Below are positions 2,789 to 21,043 of a stretch of 64,000 nt of DNA, one piece after another (position 1 is the stretch's first letter; every line of letters starts with the position of its first letter). The notes below the pieces were generated by a model. That model ran no database searches. It worked only from the letters and a program-made list of their open reading frames with translations, and was not told the DNA's origin. Origin of the DNA: an uncultured Caulobacterales bacterium. GTDB taxonomy: Bacteria > Pseudomonadota > Alphaproteobacteria > Caulobacterales > Maricaulaceae. The position numbers and the translations under genes were made by a program. The stretch spans positions 62,001 through 126,000 of the forward strand of contig CALFVT010000005.1 of NCBI GenBank assembly GCA_937928165.1, read 5' to 3'.

Positions 2789-3417
2789 AAGAGTTGCGGG
2801 TTACAGGCGTTTTAATCGCTTTTATGATATTATTTGCGGCGGCGCGATGTGTCGACGGCCTTGGCAATTCAGGGCCCATGACGCTCACCCAAGGCACAGC
2901 GCAATTAGAGTCTATACTTGATGAGATCGCCTATACAAGTCCAGATATAGACGGAAACAATAAAGCCGTCATCTATCAAATTTCCTTCCGTGGCTGTCCG
3001 CCCTGTATTCAATCTCATGAAAATATCTTGCCTCAGCTGCAAGATGCGGGGGTTGAAACGCGGCTTGTGACAACGGCGCGGCGTCATCAAAGCAGCGCCA
3101 AAGAACGGGCTGCAGTTGTTGAAAATATACGCCGCAGGGATTGGAGTTTTACACAAATGTGGTGGGCGGAGCGTCACCCGCGCCGCTTTTATGCACAAAC
3201 TGATTTACCCCCTGTAGAGGGTGATGCGGCGCGCGAAGCGGATTTACAGGCGCTACAATCCCATGTCGATGCGCTTGCGCAGCTAATGGCTCTAAACGGT
3301 CATATTTTTGGTTATCCGGCGTTAATTTGGAAATCTGCAGGTGGCCAATATAAAGCTGCAGTTGGTTATAATCCTAACTTGGCGGTGCGTATTTTGTCAG
3401 ACATAGAAGACACTTAA
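2785..3417 (+). CDS. Exported thioredoxin-fold protein with a CPPC active site
   Basis: A 210-residue protein with an N-terminal hydrophobic export segment (residues 7-20) and a thioredoxin-like core containing 'YQISFRGCPPCIQSH', where the CxxC pair sits after a beta strand as in thioredoxins and DsbC/DsbG-type proteins. 'FGYPALIWK' near residue 178 has the cis-Pro-like position before a strand. The active-site dipeptide Pro-Pro is uncommon (thioredoxin has GP, DsbA PH, DsbC GY). A periplasmic thiol oxidoreductase or isomerase role is inferred. 'AARC' after the hydrophobic segment resembles a lipobox but has Arg at -1, so lipidation is doubtful. The start ATG is preceded by GGAG at 4 bases and overlaps the stop of the small membrane ORF. 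zapE follows 22 bases later. Confidence 0.7.
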   Translation: MKELRVTGVLIAFMILFAAARCVDGLGNSGPMTLTQGTAQLESILDEIAYTSPDIDGNNKAVIYQISFRGCPPCIQSHENILPQLQDAGVETRLVTTARRHQSSAKERAAVVENIRRRDWSFTQMWWAERHPRRFYAQTDLPPVEGDAAREADLQALQSHVDALAQLMALNGHIFGYPALIWKSAGGQYKAAVGYNPNLAVRILSDIEDT

Positions 3418-18173: not shown

Positions 18174-18611
18174 ATGAGTGATGTGAAAAAGCAAGGCGCG
18201 GGGCCGTTATTTTGGGGAATCGCGATTATTGCCCTGTTGTGGAACGCCATGGGCGTGATGAGCTATATCGGATCACATTTCATTACTGAGAGCGAATTAA
18301 TTGCAGCTTACGGAGACGAGGGCGCTAAAATTTTAGCCAATACGCCCATATGGGCCACGGCTGCTTATGCAGTCGCCGTCTTTGCAGGATTGCTGGGGAG
18401 CATAGGCTTATTGCTACGTAAAAAATGGGCTTTTGCTCTATTTAGCCTCTCCCTTATTTGCGTTGTTGTTCACCATTTATGGGGTCATTATTCTGGCGGC
18501 TATAGCGTCACAAGCGCCGCCGAGAAAATCATTGGGCTGCTTGTTTTACTCTTGGCCGTTTTCTTTGTTTGGTGGTCTCGGAAGAAGGCGGCGGACGGGA
18601 CGCTTGTTTAG
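18174..18611 (+). CDS. Small four-TM membrane protein of unknown function
   Basis: 145 residues with four TM helices: about residues 12-34 ('GPLFWGIAIIALLWNAMGVM'), 61-82, 86-106 and 116-136, ending in a basic tail 'WWSRKKAADGTLV'. The loop after TM1 is acidic and polar ('SELIAAYGDEGAKILANTP'). Proteins of this shape are common and uncharacterised in alphaproteobacteria and are sometimes loosely labelled sugar transporter, for which I see no evidence. A strong GGAGG lies five bases before the ATG. It follows the sucB terminator and has no operon partner. The repeat-rich region follows. Confidence 0.6.
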   Translation: MSDVKKQGAGPLFWGIAIIALLWNAMGVMSYIGSHFITESELIAAYGDEGAKILANTPIWATAAYAVAVFAGLLGSIGLLLRKKWAFALFSLSLICVVVHHLWGHYSGGYSVTSAAEKIIGLLVLLLAVFFVWWSRKKAADGTLV

Positions 18612-18715
18612 ATTCTAAATAGGCATTGAGGGAAAGCCTAACAGTGTCATTTTGTTATGCCCCCTCGTTGTTATGTCTCCTTGGCTTGACCTAAAGCTTT
18701 GTCTTTATCAGTTTG

Positions 18716-19004
18716 GATTCTCGCTTTCGCGGGAATGGACGGAATTAGAAGGCATTCCACAGACACGCCCCAATAGACTTACCCCAAAAACCGTGCATTC
18801 CCGCGCATGCGGGAATCTCAGTCACCTAGATTGGAGTAAGAGATTCCGGCTTTCGCCGGAATGGACGGAGTTAGAAGCCATCTCAGTAGACACGTCCCAA
18901 ACACCGTACATTCCCGCGCATGCGGGAATCTCTACCATTTTGCTTCACTCTATAGATTCCCGCCGCAGTTTATCCCTGTGAAAACAGGGGTGGGAACGGA
19001 CGGA
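18716..19004. repeat. Composite palindromic repeat array (2.4 units of 113-126 bases)
   Basis: Unit starts at 18716, 18842 and 18955. Units one and two each begin GATTC(T/C)-hairpin-GGAATGGACGG and later contain the identical hairpin ATTCCCGC-GCAT-GCGGGAAT (18797-18816 and 18910-18929). Unit two's first hairpin is ATTCCGGC-TTTC-GCCGGAAT. Between the hairpins both units share 'GACAC' and 'CCCAA'-type segments. Unit three begins GATTCCCGCC and carries an internal CCCTGT-GAAA-ACAGGG stem (18974-18989) before GGAACGGACGG. The GATTCCCGC...GCGGGAATGACGG theme is known from dispersed palindromic repeats (REP/MITE-like) in many proteobacteria. The alternation of two different hairpins in tandem is the specific feature here. 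Confidence 0.7.
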
Positions 19005-19309
19005 AAACAGATAAACTTCTCTATCAATGTAAGGCCCATCAATGTAAGGAAGGAAAATTCCCAAGATATATCCACGCCCATCAACCATGCCTTATATTAC
19101 CTTCATCACCTTTTGGGACAGGCAAGTGATCGTTGGCGGGCTTTAAGGTGTGATTGGTGCGAATAGCTTGTGGATTAACGCCCGCAGGTCTCGCCGGACG
19201 CTCTGTAATATACTTTTTAATAAGTGTATAAGGTGAAAGCTGGGATGGCCTAGACCTAATGGCTGTCTGGGGCCTTTGAAAAAGCCAATCTCGCAGCATG
19301 CGTAGCGTC

Positions 19310-19464
19310 AAAATAGGTTCCTCGTAAGTCTTTTGGGAACCTATTTTAGCGGAGCACCACAAATGCAAATTTGTGGCCCCGGCAGACGTTACCGCTTCCT
19401 ATCAATGTGATAGGCGGCACCCGTTTGCGTCAAACAAAGATATTTGGTTCCCATCGTAAATGGG
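19310..19464. repeat. Cluster of four hairpins upstream of lpd, possible structured RNA
   Basis: Four inverted repeats follow each other: 19310-19347 with a perfect 12-bp stem (AAAATAGGTTCC / GGAACCTATTTT, 14-base loop); 19357-19376 with an 8-bp stem (CCACAAAT / ATTTGTGG) closed by GCAA, a GNRA-type tetraloop on the plus strand; 19398-19414 with a 7-bp stem (CCTATCA / TGATAGG); and 19450-19464 with a 5-bp stem (CCCAT / ATGGG). This could be a small RNA, part of the lpd leader (start 19652), or residue of a mobile element. No T-run marks a terminator. I cannot tell the strand. Confidence 0.45.
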
Positions 19465-19651
19465 TATGCTGCGAATTGTCCAAACTGCGCCTTATTGGCG
19501 GCGGTCAGCATAAGCTTGCGGAAAAATATTCTAATATGGCGATTTAATCTCCCGTAAAGGCCGACCCTATTGCGGTGAAGCTTTATCATAGCGATTGACC
19601 CGTTTCATATCCTCGCTTAAACGAACAGGAATAAAACTTATGGAGTGCAGC

Positions 19652-21043
19652 ATGGCAGAGACATATGATATTCTAGTGATTGGCGGCGGGCCGGGCGGTT
19701 ATAATTGCGCCATTCGCGCCGGACAATTAGGCCTGAAAGTTGGCTGTATTGAAACCCGAAAAACCCTTGGTGGCACCTGTTTGAATGTGGGCTGTATTCC
19801 GTCCAAGGCGCTTCTTCATGCAACGGAAATGCTTGAAACGGCGGAGAAACATTTTGACGGCATGGGCATTACCACCGGCAAGATTGGCTTTGACCTTGGT
19901 AAAATGATGGCGGCCAAAGAAAAGACGGTCTCCGGCCTGACGGATGGGATTAAATATCTGTTTAAGAAAAACAAAGTCGACCATATTGAAGGCTTTGGCA
20001 AAATTATTGACGCCCAAACTGTTGATGTAGACGGTAAAACCTATAAGACGAAAAACATCGTCATTGCTACAGGCTCCGAAGTGGCGACCCTTCCCGGCAT
20101 AGAGATTGACGAGACTCGAATTGTCTCATCTACGGGAGCGCTTGAGCTCAAAGAAGTTCCGAAAAAACTCCTCGTGATTGGCGGCGGCGTGATTGGCCTT
20201 GAGCTCGGTTCAGTCTGGCGGCGCCTCGGCGCAGAAGTGACCGTGGTTGAATATCTCGATCATATTATGCCAGGCATGGACGGTGAGGTGCAAAAACAAG
20301 CCCTTCGTATTTTCAAAAAACAAAAGATGAAATTCGAGCTTGGCCGTAAGGTGACAGGTATTGATAATAGTAAAAAATCTGGCCTTAAGGTTCAAACCGA
20401 AGCCAGTGCCGGCGGAAGCCCGAAAGATATTGACGCGGATGTTGTGCTGGTCTGTATTGGCCGCCGCCCGTTCACAGATAATCTCGGCCTTGACGGCGTA
20501 GGTGTTGCCACCGACAAGCGCGGTTTTATTGAAACCGATCATTATAAAACATCTGTGCCCGGTATTTTTGCCGTGGGGGATTGTACCGTCGGGCCAATGC
20601 TCGCCCATAAGGCAGAAGATGAAGGGGTTGCGGCCGCCGAAATTATTGCCGGTAAAGCGGGCCATGTGAATTATGATGTCATTCCGGGGGTGGTTTACAC
20701 TGCGCCGGAGATTGCCTCTGTTGGCAAGACAGAAGAAGACTTAAAAGCAGCAGGCGTGCCTTACAAGAAAGGGAAATTCCCTTTCAGTGCCAATTCTCGC
20801 GCGCGGGCTAATCACGCGACCGACGGCTTTGTTAAAATTCTCGCCCATGCAGAAACTGATGAAATTCTTGGCGTCCATATGATTGGGGCGCATGTGGGTG
20901 ACTTGATTGCTGAGGTCTGCGTGGCGATGGAATTCCGCGCCGCCAGTGAAGATATTGCCCGCACATGTCATGCCCATCCAACGATTACCGAAGCCGTGCG
21001 CCAAGCGGCCATGGACGTCGAAGGTTGGACGATGCAGATGTAG
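19652..21043 (+). CDS. lpd: Dihydrolipoyl dehydrogenase (E3)
   Basis: 463 residues, flavoprotein that reoxidises dihydrolipoyl groups of 2-oxoacid dehydrogenase complexes with NAD. Seen: FAD motif 'YDILVIGGGPGGYNCAIRAG', redox disulfide 'GGTCLNVGCIPSKALLH', NAD-binding 'KLLVIGGGVIGLELGSVW', second FAD motif 'VPGIFAVGDCTVGPMLAHKA' and C-terminal His-Glu pair in 'CHAHPTITEAV'. Start ATG 19652 is chosen because GGAG lies six bases upstream and the Rossmann strand follows directly. In-frame upstream starts would add a 19-residue tail. The only E3 gene in the window, so it probably serves both SucAB and the branched-chain complex encoded at 49435-52835. Confidence 0.96.
   Translation: MAETYDILVIGGGPGGYNCAIRAGQLGLKVGCIETRKTLGGTCLNVGCIPSKALLHATEMLETAEKHFDGMGITTGKIGFDLGKMMAAKEKTVSGLTDGIKYLFKKNKVDHIEGFGKIIDAQTVDVDGKTYKTKNIVIATGSEVATLPGIEIDETRIVSSTGALELKEVPKKLLVIGGGVIGLELGSVWRRLGAEVTVVEYLDHIMPGMDGEVQKQALRIFKKQKMKFELGRKVTGIDNSKKSGLKVQTEASAGGSPKDIDADVVLVCIGRRPFTDNLGLDGVGVATDKRGFIETDHYKTSVPGIFAVGDCTVGPMLAHKAEDEGVAAAEIIAGKAGHVNYDVIPGVVYTAPEIASVGKTEEDLKAAGVPYKKGKFPFSANSRARANHATDGFVKILAHAETDEILGVHMIGAHVGDLIAEVCVAMEFRAASEDIARTCHAHPTITEAVRQAAMDVEGWTMQM

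Follow-up and report, generated by a model that had tools for sequence, protein, structure and literature searches.

The window, that is, the whole 64,000-nucleotide stretch of DNA that was analysed, carries sucB and lpd with an ORF of 145 amino acids between them (18174-18611), and two tandem homologues of this ORF were found there in three relatives (L271, L272 and L273). The 1040 bp between the DUF gene and lpd hold REP-like palindromes and an RNA gene. The palindromes (18716-18933, types ATTCCCGCGCATGCGGGAAT and GATTCCGGCTTTCGCCGGAAT) recur beside many of the RNA copies described below and also elsewhere. At 19310-19464 the first-pass annotation had noticed a run of four perfect hairpins, for which it proposed either a small RNA or a leader of lpd. 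All four stems were found in the sequence, inside the 3' domain of an RNA gene that extends well beyond them, over about 400 bases (approximately 19102-19482 of the window, plus strand).

Extent and architecture of the RNA gene

The extent of the RNA gene body (19102-19482, ends approximate) was delimited by three lines of evidence: a match at 19102-19290 to the covariance model R2, with 168.4 bits and an E value of 4.8e-45 for a copy that itself belongs to the training set; covariation of the 3' domain, which extends to 19474; and the fold of the whole RNA, which gave a z score of -4.6 in comparison to shuffles. Upstream lies a promoter-like motif, ATATATCCACGCCC ... TTATATTA (19066-19099, plus strand), with the box ATCCACG at 19070 and a -10-like element at 19092-19099. 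In 21 copies aligned by that box, ATCCACG was exact in 18, and a -10-like TA-rich stretch followed it at a spacing that was near-constant by eye. The pattern WATCCACGCCCN12-14TWATWTT had three matches in the genome, every one of them at an RNA copy, while a sigma-70 consensus scan called no promoter upstream of the RNA gene in the window. A DnaA box was considered as a possible reading of the sequence TTATCCACG. As for the 3' end, the first-pass annotation saw no terminator that would explain the hairpins, and the consensus scan called none at this RNA gene. The T-run is missing here, but by eye a degenerate terminator-like hairpin is retained at about 19484-19505 (plus strand), and most other copies finish with both a hairpin and a short T-run. 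The window copy, being without the T-run, may be decaying.

The RNA begins with the hairpin P1 (19104-19151), whose helices 1 and 2 were paired in 78.2% and 76.7% of the alignment cells, respectively, and whose 7-nt apical loop GTGATCG (19126-19132) contains UGAUCG, which is self-complementary only when G.U pairs are allowed. Within P1, GGACA (19116-19120) forms the 5' strand of a long-range 5'-3' helix and can pair with TGTCC (19477-19481), its 3' strand, which was assigned from the centroid fold and from covariation in relatives; the centroid structure of the window copy includes GGAC/GUCC. The central domain (19152-19290) follows, closed by GATTGGT (19152-19158) and GCCAATC (19284-19290), and it contains a hairpin with a conserved loop, GATGGCC-TAGACCTAAT-GGCTGTC (19244-19267), paired in 94.2% of cells with two-sided changes at three of seven pairs.

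The 3' domain (19291-19474, closing helix TCGCAGCAT / ATGCTGCGA) contains the hairpins noticed earlier. Because its outer 9-bp helix (19291-19299/19466-19474) surrounds all four stems, what had been described as a run of hairpins is the interior of one closed domain. The fold of 19280-19485 had an energy of -82.8 kcal/mol in comparison to -51.1 +/- 4.1 kcal/mol for 200 shuffles (z score -7.7, no shuffle being as good), and the minus strand was weaker, with a z score of -5.8. In an alignment of 12 paralogues (A2), the 8-bp hairpin (19357-19364/19369-19376, loop GCAA) was paired in 100% of cells, and the GNRA-type loop assigned to it at first was borne out by GCAA or GTAA in the six copies that have the hairpin. 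The 7-bp hairpin (19398-19404/19408-19414) corresponds to two helices paired in 83.3% and 91.7% of cells, the latter figure being that of its inner five pairs. The 12-bp hairpin (19310-19321/19336-19347) is an optional subdomain, kept in part, with pairing in 70.7% of cells and in at most five copies. The 5-bp hairpin (19450-19454/19460-19464) was weak, with 62.5% of cells paired in comparison to 56.5% for shuffles, 21 of 500 shuffles equalling it, and a two-sided change at one of five pairs. Its 3' arm fits 19420-19429 better, and the competing terminal stem 19420-19429/19455-19464, which bears a large conserved loop (19430-19454), was paired in 89.3% of cells with two-sided changes at seven of ten pairs; the 5-bp hairpin was rejected in its favour.

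Copies, covariation and distribution

The model R2, which comprises P1 and the central domain and was trained on 15 diverse paralogues, gave 26 matches in the 2.6-Mb genome of this marine bacterium (15 of them the training copies), the weakest with an E value of 6.8e-19, and R1, a central-domain model built from 8 copies, gave 21. Three R2 matches are cut by contig ends (C9, C14 and C23); as C9 could be the opposite end of C14 or of C23, the distinct genes number at least 25. A blastn search of the genome returned 5 matches, and 61 with further searching, mostly partial, with REP-like repeats among them. Common to the copies are the ATCCACG promoter-like motif, the 5' hairpin, the central domain and a variable 3' domain. 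A compact subfamily (C6, C2c, C20b, C5d and four more) is without one central hairpin, and a tRNA-Glu(TTC) gene immediately precedes a divergent copy, C4c (L049, 1349-1423 for the tRNA gene and about 1480-1900 for the copy). The earlier suggestion of a small RNA has accordingly gained ground, a covarying structured RNA with a common promoter-like motif being present at 26 places.

Several copies carry additional sequence. In L036 (C20) and L045 (C26) a palindromic repeat of about 70 bases, CTGCCGGGGCCTTTT..TATATTTAATCCACTGGATTAAATATT..CACCTCCAAAG, is inserted in the central domain; it occurs also in L037 and L040, and similar sequences are found elsewhere. In L037 (C16) and L043 (C18) a hairpin-rich insertion of about 70 bases (..CAATCGATACGGTGTATCGATTG..) lies at the same point, in the first central-domain hairpin, and C26 has an insertion resembling the CAATCGATACGGTGTATCGATTG type at another place in the central domain. 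Behind the full C5a copy there is a second, partial 3' domain (L046, about 3100-3250), which suggests recombination between copies.

Covariation, whose absence from relatives the first-pass annotation would have taken as a refutation, was strong among the paralogues of this genome. For the central domain (alignment A1, 8 paralogues), 95.0% of cells were paired in comparison to 77.8% for shuffles, with two-sided changes at 28 of 48 pairs (one three-pair helix showing none) and 33% to 44% pairing in slid controls. For P1 and the central domain together (A4, 15 paralogues), 88.8% of cells were paired in comparison to 70.2% for shuffles, with two-sided changes at 43 of 62 pairs; weakest was the upper helix of P1 (76.7% of cells, two-sided changes at two of eight pairs). 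For the 3' domain (A2), 88.6% of cells were paired in comparison to 75.5% for shuffles, with two-sided changes at 20 of 45 pairs; the measure of further pair types did not go beyond shuffles (107 of 500). In all three alignments none of 500 shuffles matched the observed pairing or covariation score and slid controls were paired at 33% to 46%, where the counts are not independent since the copies are related. The clearest covariation was that of the domain-closing helix (GATTGG/CCAATC, GATAGG/CCTATC, AGTCAG/CTGGCT). Wobble cells comprised 184 G.T in comparison to 17 A.C, indicating the plus strand. These secondary-structure statistics refer to paralogues of one genome, and the comparison across genomes covers the loop and the 5'-3' helix. 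In relatives, helices P2 and P5 were located by complementarity and were therefore excluded from the covariation count.

The genes beside the copies in this genome were, by Pfam, GroEL-, PhoH-, RecJ-, thiolase-, release factor-, DNA methylase (CcrM)-, CysS- and argininosuccinate lyase-like, besides lpd, and the 30 of 44 neighbour ORFs that were scanned revealed no functional theme. The nearest downstream ORF of at least 90 aa was co-directional in 11 of 22 cases (25 of the 26 copies were examined, three of which have no such ORF). The flanking genes of these copies and of the relatives' copies seldom correspond; in the pairs that do, such as L171/L103, the RNA is placed elsewhere, L174/L145 being a possible exception with a shared position.

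Other genomes were searched mainly with R3, a model trained on 27 copies of relatives and 4 of this genome, which leans on P1 because the underlying alignment A5 joins the clades well only there. Within the same GTDB family, R3 had matches in 21 of 118 other genomes (22 of 119 when the own genome is counted) and in 16 of 89 of the better assemblies, and its matches span 6 of 19 genera, the own genus included. The richest other genomes had 19, 16, 15, 14 and 14 matches; a few of the 21 genomes had a weak best match (E values of 0.002 to 0.005). Judging by identical match scores, G011 is probably Hellea balneolensis, so that the window would belong to its family. The other 97 family genomes had no R3 match at E<=0.01 and none was found in 384 further genomes sampled from the class, under filters so strict (26 scored candidates per genome for the family and 8 for the class) that these absences are not proof. 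With R2 at E<=1, 7 of 40 other family genomes matched, the match in G023 (E value 0.49) being unconvincing; blastn and R1 found nothing in 60 and 98 other genomes among the relatives, respectively, and a first pattern taken from the central domain found nothing in genome contigs or in viral contigs. A pattern of the P1 loop, GGNCAGGCAANNGNNCNTTGGNTGGC, picked out 54 stretches among 84,980 species genomes, of which 48 were Robiginitomaculum or Hellea records, five came from one Alphaproteobacteria MAG and one from Aliiroseovarius, an unrelated genus. R2 also matched 53 of these 54 loci at E<=0.0014, with scores that include the contribution of P1 itself, and missed the one in Aliiroseovarius. 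The P1-loop pattern had no match in viral contigs, and the blastn query had none in phage or plasmid collections.

No Rfam 15 model matched the window at gathering score. At E<=10 there were seven hits in 18600-19700, all at 18782-19058 and outside the RNA, and at E<=5 there were six hits at eight copy loci, none within the RNA and only a tRNA-Glu at gathering score. A literature search, in which subscription journals were thinly covered, found no description of this RNA. The family is thus absent from Rfam 15 and apparently undescribed, and it is so far known only from Robiginitomaculum, Hellea and relatives, which make up part of one alphaproteobacterial family.

The apical loop and the long-range helix

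The apical loop of P1 has 7 nt (e.g., GCGUACG) between strongly conserved flanks. We examined it in a single register for all copies, using the hits of R3 and R2 outside this genome together with its own copies. The 80 copies of relatives were 79 of the 135 R3 matches outside the own genome plus one R2 match, those left out being mainly from genomes already represented by pattern loci; 77 of the 80 were used (L254, L255 and L257 were unanchored), as were 24 of the 25 own copies that have a P1 (C15, with the loop CGCGCG, was unanchored). Of the 36 distinct 12-nt loop windows, 28 held a perfect palindrome of at least 6 nt, in comparison to a mean of 4.5 and a maximum of 14 in 2000 rounds of shuffling; with G.U allowed the number was 32, in comparison to a mean of 15.9 and a maximum of 26. 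Counted by copies, the perfect palindrome was present in 79 of 101. In the other genomes alone 23 of 29 distinct loops (shuffle maximum 10) and 60 of 77 copies were palindromic, where the R3 hits are biased towards such loops since R3 was trained on that type; in the own genome it was 8 of 11 distinct loops (shuffle maximum 6) and 19 of 24 copies. Control windows shifted by -14, +12 and +24 held palindromes in 1 of 47, 1 of 69 and 4 of 58 cases, respectively.

Eleven different perfect hexamers were observed, namely CGATCG, CGTACG, TGATCA, GTGCAC, TGTACA, ACGCGT, GTATAC, CGCGCG, ACCGGT, ACTAGT and TGCGCA, of which the own genome carries five. UGAUCG occurs in the window copy and in several genomes, and imperfect loops were CGGACG (C20b and L123), CGTAGG (C2d), GAGATCG in G078, TCGCGTARG in G011 and GCGCGTTA in G124. 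The inner dinucleotide of the loop, which was left free in the pattern, was the self-complementary AU, UA or CG in 52 of 53 family loci. Since neighbouring loop bases are unable to pair with each other in cis, this switching points to pairing between molecules, an argument that has been published for OLE L9.3 and GOLLD L21a (PMC12286853). With the exceptions named above, the loop covaries as a palindrome, a feature of homo-oligomerising ornate RNAs.

The second feature compared across genomes was the 5'-3' helix. The strand that follows the lower stem of P1 (GGGAC, GGGGC or AGGGC) is complementary to sequence behind the 3' domain (GUCCC, GCCCC or GCCCU). A helix of at least 5 bp was formed in 22 of 25 relatives' loci, in comparison to at most 16 of 25 when the tails were dealt out anew; ten further loci had been set aside by eye for a doubtful assignment of the 3' hairpin, and with these included 25 of 35 loci reached 5 bp, in comparison to at most 18 with redealt tails. 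In the own genome the helix is mostly a constant GGAC/GUCC with little covariation.

A family of candidate self-associating RNAs

Taken together, the results are probably best explained by a new family of structured noncoding RNAs, encoded in many copies scattered over the genome, whose members associate homotypically into dimers or larger assemblies, a reading to which we assign a probability of about 0.7. Each gene would have its own promoter-like motif, give rise to a putative transcript of roughly 250 to 450 nt and often end in a terminator. The predicted fold consists of P1 at the 5' end, a multibranch domain in the centre and a 3' domain, with the 3' end of the RNA pairing back into P1, and the apical loop of P1 would usually present a self-complementary hexamer. 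As the loop covaries as a palindrome and its adjacent bases cannot pair in cis, two RNA molecules would kiss via this loop; as different copies of one genome bear different palindromes, like would pair with like. Copies lie scattered among unrelated genes, mostly at different sites in each species, suggesting that they are gained and lost. Most likely the RNAs would work in trans, either as homodimers or as components from which larger RNA assemblies are built. More tentatively, and with somewhat less than even confidence, we picture about two dozen paralogous RNAs per cell that sort themselves by largely non-matching palindromes into dimers or larger RNA-only complexes of their own kind and whose genes are semi-mobile.

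A different explanation, brought up along with the small RNA at the outset, is that the RNA is a cis-acting leader of lpd, either an attenuator or a riboswitch. The RNA gene precedes lpd on the same strand, and the missing T-run of the window copy would permit read-through. However, the RNA was absent from all 12 lpd loci inspected in other genomes (nine of these genomes have it elsewhere), and in four relatives (G007, G036, G078 and G130) the site is closed, sucB, DUF and lpd following each other with 71 to 124 bp between DUF and lpd as judged by tblastn match ends. Since the position upstream of lpd is not conserved, the copies adjoin genes as unrelated as those listed above and the downstream ORF is co-directional in only half of the cases, the leader was rejected as very improbable. 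The same closed site would be expected if the copies were non-autonomous mobile DNA elements of MITE or REP type, with hairpins that serve transposition and no function as RNA; their number, dispersal and mostly non-orthologous sites agree with this, and REP-like palindromes adjoin them. There is also a single Y1 transposase gene in the genome (C7:47452-47811), which could be REP-associated; at the ends of the copies no consistent terminal repeats were seen by eye. On the other hand, most helices show compensatory changes with an 11:1 excess of G.T over A.C, the promoter-like motif stands at a near-fixed distance and the loop palindrome varies yet mostly remains palindromic. Moreover, the 30 of 44 neighbour ORFs scanned contained no transposase family. 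A purely mobile element is thus unlikely, although mobility and an RNA function may both hold.

The palindrome itself bears on two other explanations. Multicopy families of small RNAs in which the seed loop varies are common, and the loops of the present copies vary, as would be expected of trans-acting regulators whose loops pair with mRNAs or other RNAs and not with themselves; but a seed that pairs with mRNA has no reason to stay palindromic in 28 of 36 distinct loops, and the surroundings of the loop are strongly conserved, so that we consider such regulators decidedly unlikely. Palindromes are also typical of the sites of dimeric DNA-binding proteins and methylases, and the loop might accordingly be a protein-binding DNA or RNA site in which the capacity to dimerise is incidental. 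No single DNA motif fits eleven different perfect hexamers, however, and the palindrome is placed in the apical loop of a hairpin, which leaves very little probability for a protein site.

The self-association proposed here has several precedents. The dimerisation initiation site of HIV-1 has a six-base loop palindrome flanked by purines, of the types GCGCGC and GUGCAC, which the present loop resembles, although no relationship in sequence or context is claimed. OLE is described as a homodimer held in part by the kissing loop L9.3, whose palindrome switches among GGCC, GAUC and AGCU (PMC12286853). Like OLE, the present RNA is a large structured bacterial noncoding RNA with a palindrome-switching loop and a probable dimer. 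The hosts of OLE named in PMC12265935 are Gram-positive bacteria, whereas the present RNA has many copies per genome and another host clade, and since it matches no Rfam 15 model it was not assigned to OLE. GOLLD and ROOL are described as RNA-only homo-oligomers with symmetric kissing loops, often near tRNA islands, the inner dinucleotide of GOLLD L21a switching from GC to CG and many GOLLD RNAs exceeding 800 nt (PMC12286853). The AU, UA and CG switching and the position of C4c behind a tRNA gene are reminiscent of these, but the present RNA is shorter than GOLLD, has no Rfam match, is dispersed in many chromosomal copies and had no phage, plasmid or viral match by the blastn query and the two patterns. 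The family therefore appears to resemble OLE, GOLLD and ROOL in kind, while it would be new in its clade, its copy number and the presence of several palindromes per genome.

The homo-oligomeric RNA-only complexes of OLE, GOLLD and ROOL have been called unprecedented among natural RNAs, with poorly understood function (PMC12286853, PMC12585600). The present case suggests that behind a plain-looking series of hairpins there can be an RNA gene family confined to one clade and absent from Rfam 15. If the proposed reading is true, it would add a further family of homo-oligomeric RNAs, and one that is present in the type strains R. antarcticum DSM 21748 and H. balneolensis DSM 19091. With many copies per genome and several distinct palindromes per cell, both orthogonal self-assembly and the purpose of such RNAs would become open to genetics and to in vitro assembly.
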